A DNA stretch of 64,000 nt. Origin: Candidatus Latescibacterota bacterium (lineage in GTDB: Bacteria > Latescibacterota > UBA2968 > SICM01). Numbering within the stretch: the first letter of the stretch is position 1; every line of letters begins with the position of its first letter. Location: positions 1 through 64,000 of the forward strand of contig SICM01000005.1 of assembly GCA_009694805.1 (NCBI GenBank). The letters run 5' to 3'. Positions 8,555 to 64,000 of the stretch are shown in pieces. Position numbers and translations under genes: made by a program. The notes below the pieces were generated by a model that worked only from the letters and a program-made list of their open reading frames with translations, made no database searches and had not been told where the DNA came from.

Positions 8555-8638
8555 CGTATCTCGTATCTCGTATCTCGTATCTCGTATCTCGTAAAACCTT
8601 CTACGCTTCACGCTTCACGAGATACGCTTCACGTTTTT
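8555..8638. repeat. Heptad array A, 12 x 7 bp
   Basis: CGTATCT x5, CGTAAAA, CCTTCTA, CGCTTCA x2, CGAGATA, CGCTTCA, CGTTTTT; cgtatctcgt in the left arm is the reverse complement of acgagatacg at 8617-8626. Confidence 0.95.
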
Positions 8639-61631: not shown

Positions 61632-64000
61632 ATGCAAAATGCAGAATGTAAAATGCAAAGCGCAAAATATAAATCTCACTTTTCATTTTGCACTTTTCAT
61701 TTTGCACTTTTCATTTTTCTGTCTGCCGTCGGTCTGGCCCTGTGCAGGGTCGCCGTTGCCGAGGATGGCGTCTGGTCGGGGAGCGTCTCCTCCAGGGAGA
61801 CCGTCGTCTCCCTGGCAATCCATCCCTCCAACCCGCAGGTCCTGTATGCGGGGACGGCCCGGGGGGTGTTCAAGAGCACGGACGGCGGGACCTCCTGGGC
61901 GAGCGCCAGCGCGGATCTGGAGAAGACGAACGTCAACGCCGTCGCGGTCACCCGCACGAGCCTGCAGACGGTCTATGCCGGGACGAACGGGGGGCTGTTC
62001 AGGAGCACGGACGGCGGGACCTCCTGGGAGGCGGTCTACCTGGGGCCGGCCAACGTCTACAACATCCAGGCCCTGGCGATCGACCCATCGGTCCCCCAGA
62101 TCCTCTATGCCGGGGTGCTGGGCAGGGGCGTGGTCAAGAGCGAGGACGGGGGGACCGTCTGGAAAGAGGCCAGCACGGGGCTGGCGAACGCCTTCGTCCT
62201 GTCGTTTGCGATCGACCCGTCGAATTCGCAGATCGTGTACGCCGGGACCGTCGGGGGCGCGTTCAAAAGCGTGGACGGGGGGGCCTCCTGGACCGGCCTC
62301 GCGCTCACCGTCGCCTATGTATACGGCCTGGCCATCCCCGCCTCGCGTCCGCAGACGATCTATGCGGGGACGAGCAGGGGGGTCTTCCGGAGCGCCGATG
62401 GCGGGGCCCTGTGGGAGGCGGCCAATAAAGGGCTGACGGGCGACGCCGTGCGGGCGCTGGCGGTCGATCCGTCGAACCCCGACAGGTTGTATGCCGGGAC
62501 ACGCGACGGGGTGTTCCGGAGCGCGGATGGCGGAAACTCGTGGACGGCGGTCAACGCAGGGCTGGTCAACACGAATGTCTACGCCCTCGCCATCCGCCCT
62601 TCTCCCCCCCAGCGGGTGTATGCCGGGACGGCCGGCGGAGGGGTCTTCTCAGCCACGTTCCCCTCCGTCCTCAGCCGTCCCCTCTTCAGCGTCTCCGAGA
62701 CGTCTCTGGCGTTCAGCGAGACGACGAGCGGGGAGTCGTCGCAGAAGACGTTCTCGATCACCAACTCCGGGGATGCCAGCCTGTCGGTGACGGAGATGGC
62801 CCTGACGGGGTCGGACGCCTCGCAGTTCAGGTTCTCTCCGGCCACGGCGACCCTGCCGCCGGGGCGAAGCCAGGAGGTGACGGTGACGTTCACGCCGACC
62901 TCTCCGGGGGCGAAGTCCGCTGTCCTGTCCATCGCTCACAACGCGGCGGGGAGCCCCTCTTCGATGGCCCTGTCCGGGACGGGGACAGAGCCGCCCAGGG
63001 GAAATGCGCCGGACACGTGGACGACCTACGGGCCTTACGGGGGGACGGTCAACGCCCTCGCCGTCGTCCCGTCGGACCCGCTGACCCTGTACGCCGGAAC
63101 GGAGAGGGGGGTGTTCAAGAGCGTGAACGGGGGCGGGAGGTGGCGGGAGGCAGGCGCGGAGATTCGACACGCGGACGTCCGGGCGCTGGGGATCGACCCG
63201 GTGAGTCCCCAGACGGTGTATGCGGGGACGTTCGGGAGGGGGGTTTTCAAGAGCGAGGACGGGGGGCGCTCGTGGGCGGAGGTCAACCTGGGGCTGGGGA
63301 GTTCGACGGTCCTATCCCTGGCGATCGATCCCCTGAACCCGCAGAGGGTCTACGCCGGGACCAGCAAGGGCATATTTCTGAGCGGGAATGGCGGGAGGAG
63401 CTGGCAGGAGGCCGACGCCGGGCCGGCGAACGCCGCTGTCAACGCCCTTGCGGTCGATCCGGTGAATCCGCAGATCCTGTACGCCGGGACCGGCAGCGGG
63501 GGGGTTCTCAAGAGCTCGAACGGGGGAAATTCCTGGACGCCGGTCATCACGGGGCTGAACCGGACAGACGTCCGTGTCCTCGGGATCCATCCGGTGAATC
63601 CGCAGATCCTGTACGCCGGCACGTCCGGGGGCGTGTTCCAGAGCGTGGACGGAGGGGGGCTGTGGACGGAGGCCGATGCGGGTCTGGTGAATGCGGATGT
63701 TCGGGCGCTGGCGGTGGACCCGTCGAACCCGCAGGTGGTGTATGCCGGGACGTTCGGGGGTGGGGCCTTCCGGAGCGCCGACGGGGGGATCGGGTGGGTG
63801 GCGATCAACTCGGGATTGACGAACGTCTTCATCCGGGCGCTGGCGGTGGACCCGTCGAACCCGCGGGTGGTGTATGCGGCCACGGACGGCGGTGGGGCCT
63901 TCCGGAGCGCTGACGGGGGGGGGGCGTGGGCAGAGATCAGCGCCGGGTTGTCGAACACGACGGTCCTGTCCCTGGCGGTGGACCCGTCGAACTCGCAGGT
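61632..64000 (+). CDS. Exported BNR/Ycf48-like repeat protein with choice-of-anchor-D-like segment, runs off the window
   Basis: Frame 0 open to the window end on visual reading, absent from the ORF track (probably because no stop is present): QVLYAGTARGVFKSTDGGTSWAS ... repeated; SFSITNSGDASLSVTEMALTGSDASQF in the middle. Confidence 0.85.
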   Translation, partial: MQNAECKMQSAKYKSHFSFCTFHFALFIFLSAVGLALCRVAVAEDGVWSGSVSSRETVVSLAIHPSNPQVLYAGTARGVFKSTDGGTSWASASADLEKTNVNAVAVTRTSLQTVYAGTNGGLFRSTDGGTSWEAVYLGPANVYNIQALAIDPSVPQILYAGVLGRGVVKSEDGGTVWKEASTGLANAFVLSFAIDPSNSQIVYAGTVGGAFKSVDGGASWTGLALTVAYVYGLAIPASRPQTIYAGTSRGVFRSADGGALWEAANKGLTGDAVRALAVDPSNPDRLYAGTRDGVFRSADGGNSWTAVNAGLVNTNVYALAIRPSPPQRVYAGTAGGGVFSATFPSVLSRPLFSVSETSLAFSETTSGESSQKTFSITNSGDASLSVTEMALTGSDASQFRFSPATATLPPGRSQEVTVTFTPTSPGAKSAVLSIAHNAAGSPSSMALSGTGTEPPRGNAPDTWTTYGPYGGTVNALAVVPSDPLTLYAGTERGVFKSVNGGGRWREAGAEIRHADVRALGIDPVSPQTVYAGTFGRGVFKSEDGGRSWAEVNLGLGSSTVLSLAIDPLNPQRVYAGTSKGIFLSGNGGRSWQEADAGPANAAVNALAVDPVNPQILYAGTGSGGVLKSSNGGNSWTPVITGLNRTDVRVLGIHPVNPQILYAGTSGGVFQSVDGGGLWTEADAGLVNADVRALAVDPSNPQVVYAGTFGGGAFRSADGGIGWVAINSGLTNVFIRALAVDPSNPRVVYAATDGGGAFRSADGGGAWAEISAGLSNTTVLSLAVDPSNSQ
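61633..61716. repeat. Heptad array O, 12 x 7 bp, overlapping a start codon and signal peptide
   Basis: TGCAAAA TGCAGAA TGTAAAA TGCAAAG CGCAAAA TATAAAT CTCACTT TTCATTT TGCACTT TTCATTT TGCACTT TTCATTT. Confidence 0.95.

Follow-up and report, generated by a model that had tools for sequence, protein, structure and literature searches.

Heptad-built inverted elements are dispersed between the genes of a Candidatus Latescibacterota bacterium

Introduction

Heptamers were found by Mrazek et al. in 2007 to be over-represented among the long simple sequence repeats (LSSRs) of many bacteria, being the commonest long repeat of many genomes, and polymerase contact length was put forward as the cause; both points are taken here from the accounts in later papers (PMC4679880, PMC4692102). 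In Xanthomonas, arrays of the word GGGAATC form 70 and 75 inverted heptad pairs in two genomes. About 90% of these arrays are intergenic and close to the upstream ORF, with 16% in convergent and 7-8% in divergent gaps (PMC4692102). Geobacter metallireducens carries 4 x GGACCGG in 49 copies and 5 x MTYCTGA at 15 sites (PMC2700814).

The elements described here, found in a 64-kb stretch of DNA (hereafter the window) and in the genome from which it comes, resemble the LSSRs of Xanthomonas (GGGAATC) and Nostoc (GGGGAYT) in their period of 7, their intergenic and mostly co-directional setting with fewer divergent than convergent cases, their closeness to the upstream ORF, their many inverted pairs and a rapid turnover among close species (PMC4692102). 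They differ in that those genomes use one G-rich word each, whereas many words are used here, with several two-word families, conserved centres and no G-quadruplex logic. In the trnL introns of Nostoc, degenerate heptads likewise form a hairpin, with strain-variable copy number and distinct word classes, but that is a single intron locus and the present set is genome-wide and intergenic (cited in PMC3488679). The G. metallireducens elements are also dispersed families of four to five tandem heptanucleotides, suggested to be regulatory (PMC2700814), although a two-arm inverted layout is not their defining feature and their word families are fewer. The TAACTGA repeats of Beggiatoaceae, Cyanobacteria and Bacteroidetes are intergenic heptads too, with one word in distant phyla; unlike the present elements, they comprise 169 direct sets versus one indirect set and lie just 5' of start codons, not past stops (PMC4679880).

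An earlier note on this DNA, made from the sequence alone, had pointed to the heptanucleotide STRR repeats of cyanobacteria as a precedent. This kinship is supported, in that the STRR of Calothrix also comprise several heptanucleotide words per genome, whereas inverted arms are absent from those of their descriptions that we covered (cited in PMC4692102). The same note was unaware of any earlier case of the symmetric layout; the Xanthomonas inverted pairs (PMC4692102) and the Nostoc trnL heptad hairpins (PMC3488679) are such precedents.

Results

Period 7 at ten loci of the window

The earlier note had listed ten intergenic loci with a 7-nt period, and the period proved to be beyond chance at each of them. 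Total lag-7 identity exceeded that of all 400 mononucleotide shuffles (P=0 at each of the ten loci), the best 14-nt lag-7 stretch gave P<=0.005 at all ten against such shuffles, and the inverted arms gave P<=0.0025 at all ten. Most of the loci were independently listed by Tandem Repeats Finder. When a cluster was defined as a 28-nt stretch with at least 23 matches at a given lag, the window contained six clusters at lag 7, six at lag 14, one at lag 9 and none at any other lag from 4 to 15. No cluster arose in five third-order Markov simulations.

The coordinates are collected in Table 1. A perfect TTGACA-17-TATAAT promoter-like site is present on the minus strand at 22170-22142, and a minus-strand gene starts near 22007; the element between them would therefore be transcribed as a 5' leader. 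The ORF that holds the two one-armed arrays is on the minus strand and 1954 aa long, and the arrays would encode short protein repeats. At 63702-64000 we noted a 132-nt tandem repeat, beta-propeller-like by inspection, which continues past the window end.

Table 1. Heptad elements and one-armed arrays of the window
Feature	Position	Strand	Arms and context
F1 element	8549..8635	.	Left arm (GTATCTC)x5 8556-8593; centre AAAACCTTCTA; right arm 8604-8633, GCTTCAC/GAGATAC units; flanked by minus-strand genes 8031-8549 and 8639-10993
GGTGTCN-type element	15975..16119	.	Arms about 15986-16018 (left) and 16050-16119 (right)
(CGAATTA)/(ATTCGAC) element	21537..21610	.	Arms 21546-21565 and 21577-21595; both neighbours minus-strand genes
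(CGTGGAT)x6.4 / (CGAACCA)x3.6 element	22018..22132	.	Arms 22024-22068 (left) and 22104-22128 (right); divergent gene pair
AGCNGTC / GCTGAYA element	23816..23900	.	Begins at gmk stop codon; right arm (GCTGATA)x3.4 23871-23894
CACGTGY/ACACYTG element	26188..26260	.	Arms about 26191-26219 and 26223-26252; gap between uracil-DNA-glycosylase-like gene and dnaB
(GGAWRAA)/(ATCCTTC)x5.9 element	27632..27722	.	Arms 27636-27664 and 27676-27716; occupies whole dnaB-radA gap
(AAAGTGC)/(TTGCATT) element, F2 family	29825..29925	.	Arms 29827-29870 and 29875-29918
Short (GACGGCA) element	54402..54480	.	Right arm weak, about 54449-54472; gap between PDH E1 and E2 genes
(AAATGCA) element	61620..61722	.	Left arm 61632-61668; right arm 61677-61717, in which two heptads alternate perfectly as a 14-nt unit, (CACTTTTCATTTTG)x2.9
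One-armed (GTCGCGG)x4.6	45532..45563	-	Within ORF 42721-48585; outside inverted set
One-armed (TTTCTGC)x5.9	47788..47828	-	Within ORF 42721-48585; outside inverted set

Genome-scale scan

We ran the period scan that the earlier note had proposed on 1.06 Mb of the 4.9-Mb genome, with a threshold looser than that used in the window and with 859 genes called by a simple codon model. The sample contained 142 period-7 clusters, 123 of them (87%) intergenic, against an intergenic share of 17.6% of the sequence. Among the remaining base periods between 4 and 13, none gave more than 28 clusters (period 6, largely coding) or more than 8 intergenic ones (period 9). In the unbiased part of the sample the density was 115 arrays per Mb, which extrapolates to about 560 per genome; in relatives, of the same class at best, sampled stretches totalling 326 kb contained about 2 arrays of this kind. 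Two marks of an LSSR, tandem 7-nt units far beyond chance and a mostly intergenic position, are thus present.

The genome is a draft (293 contigs, 92% complete, 5.9% contamination), from which it could be argued that the arrays stem from faulty assembly or binning. A typical read, however, is longer than these arrays, which are located within colinear conserved operons, and isolates of Vibrio, Halomonas and Pseudoalteromonas have like arrays in their genomes, which makes an artefact of this kind extremely improbable.

Complementary arms

The core of each array was aligned with its own flanks and with those of other loci, all flanks being reverse-complemented. A score of at least 10 was reached in 60% of comparisons with own flanks, in 8.6% of those with swapped flanks and in 7.3% when the array was reversed but left uncomplemented, so that the arms are matched locus by locus and the inverted layout described in the earlier note is borne out. 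Two full complementary period-7 arms were found in 68 of the 123 intergenic loci, with arms of about 37 nt, a loop of about 8 nt and a hairpin span of about 85 nt, and the elements measure about 60-120 bp. Together with the arm-swap control, these 68 loci indicate the arrangement known from Xanthomonas, in which plus and minus arrays converge close together. The A-rich centre that had been described between the arms is true of some loci only.

Identity between the units of an arm drops with distance, from 0.78 at lag 1 to 0.73, 0.67 and 0.55 at lags 2, 3 and 4, for which ragged array ends may account in part. Exact 14-nt double-unit arrays also occur (Table 1).

Words and families

According to the earlier note, each locus used a different heptamer and the set had no fixed consensus. 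Neither statement held. The words recur: TCGTATC x3 was found at about 30 places, and 75 unbiased arrays used 43 words versus 72.6 expected for random words, AAAATGC and ACGAGAT being the commonest. This number of words likewise sets the genome apart from those with a single G-rich, G-quadruplex-capable word. One large family, F1, has conserved centres. Over 33 sampled loci, its consensus consists of (GTATCTC)n, a centre of either GTTCCACCCCTCCCCACG or GTAAAAACCTTCTACG, and units of GCTTCAC and GAGATAC, often flanked on the outside by GTGAAAA ahead and TTTT behind; in another register, it reads (CGTATCT)n, one of the two centres, and CGCTTCA/CGAGATA units. Further families with patterns of their own are AAGTGCC + ACGTGGC, AAAATGC and AATGAGG.

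The two-word F1 pattern had 159 matches in the whole genome, where the number of F1 elements is lower because adjacent units may each yield a match, and 0 matches in 63 other genomes of the phylum. The reversed control of the pattern also gave 0 matches. The combination CGTATCT + CGTGAAG, with other centres, is present in 25 of 32 Nitrospira genomes, which belong to another phylum.

Centres and outer flanks conserved at 33 loci, and a family abundant in one genome and lacking in 63 relatives, are what we would expect of REP/BIME- or MITE-like mobile elements moved in trans by a transposase, with the heptads as a by-product. The presence or absence of whole elements between close Nitrospira species and the nesting of one element in another, both described below, also speak for such mobility. 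Nevertheless, the single Y1 transposase match in the genome is a broken 140-aa fragment in a type I restriction-like locus (C64:13654-13929) with no heptads near it, and a search for an intact RAYT transposase flanked by repeats yielded this one fragment only. Moreover, we recognised no target-site duplication on inspection by eye, and REP elements lack a period-7 build. We consider mobile elements of this kind unlikely as the source of the arrays. The Y1 fragment adjoins short in-frame peptide repeats. No reverse transcriptase (RVT_1) was found in the genome at its 92% completeness, which speaks against template-copied array synthesis.

Placement relative to genes

The arrays had been described as intergenic and mostly between co-directional genes, and the genome-scale sample agrees with this. 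In co-directional gaps, the outer edge of the stem lies at a median of 6.5 nt past the upstream stop codon. Elements are densest in convergent gaps (1.39 per kb), followed by co-directional (1.02) and divergent ones (0.41). Convergent and divergent gaps account for 15% and 9% of the set, respectively, versus 16% and 7-8% in Xanthomonas.

The block yicC-gmk-rpoZ-coaBC-udg-dnaB-radA allows a comparison with relatives; yicC, coaBC, dnaB and radA were named from Pfam matches, gmk and udg from reading their translations, and rpoZ is a guess from position. None of 12 class relatives in which this block is conserved, examined whole or in part, has an array inside it. The dnaB-radA gap is 93 nt here versus 11-20 nt in those relatives where the two genes are adjacent, and the difference is the array.

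Tests for a selected RNA hairpin

Real inverted arms that start just past the upstream stop and are rarest in divergent gaps could represent selected intercistronic RNA hairpins, that is, stabilisers of mRNA, processing sites or terminators whose words drift but whose pairing is kept. Selected pairing in the transcript should give G.U rather than A.C mismatches between the arms on the transcribed strand. The counts were 133 G.U versus 120 A.C (p=0.45), with no strand bias. Sense and antisense strands did not differ in predicted folding energy, 28 being lower each way. The order of units is not mirrored between the arms either: permuting one arm, with the best offset recomputed per permutation, left the matching unlowered (median p 0.54, and 1.0 with the ends trimmed), in a test that has little power where units are nearly identical. 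These three tests have limited power and yield absences of evidence, yet they all point the same way, against a selected hairpin.

Further observations weigh against RNA hairpins. A T-rich tail is present in 12.5% of cases only, and no terminator-like site (GC-rich stem plus T run on the transcribed strand) was found at the arrays of 20-32 kb. The CGTATCT arms and CGCTTCA units of F1 have just 3 of 7 pairs in common, and several Nitrospira species lack the arms, or any array, at one site. Within the window there was no Rfam match above the gathering score and no tRNA. The selected RNA structure that the earlier note had offered as one explanation was thus supported by none of the three tests, and we regard it as quite unlikely.

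Turnover at orthologous sites

Our study genome is without a same-family relative, and orthologous sites were compared in other genomes with the same words. At one Vibrio splendidus-clade site with the same flanks, the arrays contain 7, 7, 1, 2, 2 and 4 TCGTATC units, and other strains have other heptads or none. One Nitrospira site was surveyed in 29 species. The basic F1 form is found there in gaps of 84, 77, 77, 70 and 70 nt, while three species have no array and a gap of 14-15 nt. A second repeat lies inside the F1 arms in three species, a complete inner heptad hairpin is present in one, and two species have a different inverted heptad word; about ten show weak period 7 only, with arms that are not significant. 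When mapped onto the upstream gene's tree, the array types, which were assigned by eye, require at least 10 changes, some of which allele exchange between species could explain.

The comparison of orthologous sites called for by the earlier note therefore reveals gain and loss of units, replacement of types, nesting and absence. Between the two origins it had suggested, these sites favour a period-7 copying or slippage process rather than a selected RNA structure.

Several other features of the Nitrospira site were observed. In four sequences with F1 arrays, CG recurs every 7 nt nearly unbroken through arms and centre, with CGTNNNN units on the left and CGNNNNA units on the right, and word order is unmirrored. 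In two sequences the nested inner repeat fits period 8 (19 and 17 of 21) better than period 7 (11 and 9). One genome (G072) has the heptad site twice around an N run, suggesting tandem duplication or misassembly.

A further possibility is that a protein which binds DNA or RNA recognises the arrays as sites at a 7-nt pitch, as has already been proposed for the TAACTGA repeats (PMC4679880) and the Geobacter heptanucleotide elements (PMC2700814). By established geometry, three heptads make 21 nt, or two turns of B-DNA, and words are reused within the genome. However, the words vary greatly from locus to locus, and among related species one and the same site has had its words replaced, so that one binding specificity cannot read all arrays. 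This explanation appears very unlikely.

Breadth across bacteria

A 21-letter word was found in at least 111 contigs from many phyla. These contigs contain 95 other period-7 arrays versus at most 11 arrays for any other period outside the multiples of 7, and a complementary partner accompanies 41% of the 95 versus 9.6% after swapping. The contigs with partnered arrays belong to Bacteroidota, Chloroflexota, Rickettsiales, Omnitrophota, Patescibacteria and others. At least 19 contigs from unrelated bacteria show the inverted layout, within a set that was picked for carrying a heptad array and is therefore no unbiased survey of bacteria.

Discussion

The heptad-built inverted elements of the present genome are a real expansion, dense and specific to its lineage. 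We think that these are probably dispersed quasi-palindromic repeats of the heptameric LSSR class, which are remodelled at the DNA level as 7-nt units come and go. In other genomes that contain the same words, arms at fixed sites gain and lose whole 7-nt units; families have arms, and sometimes centres, in common across many loci of one genome; and the elements are located between genes, mostly just past a stop codon.

Misaligned replication or recombination of DNA may add and remove the units, and neighbouring units within an arm would then be alike. Families may spread via copying of whole elements, which would persist where genes are least disturbed. The inverted symmetry might be inherited from a palindromic ancestor or arise through fold-back copying, and not through selection for base pairing. 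Slippage alone does not account for the paired inverted arms, the shared centres or the presence of CGTATCT + CGTGAAG in Nitrospira.

A broader reading is that heptad inverted elements form one class across phyla, in which the layout outlives the sequence, words being replaced at a site and the layout returning. We advance it tentatively and rather doubt it; if true, it would need a dedicated copying mechanism that proceeds in 7-nt steps and folds back, or selection on the layout.

Bacterial heptad repeats and the inverted pairs of Xanthomonas were known before, and what is unusual here is the density of the arrays. The Nitrospira and Vibrio sites are natural experiments from which one can follow, one step after another, how units are gained and lost, how elements nest and how words are replaced. 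Together with this dense case and the recurring layout, that stepwise record brings the question of the 7-nt step within reach of tests on laboratory strains.
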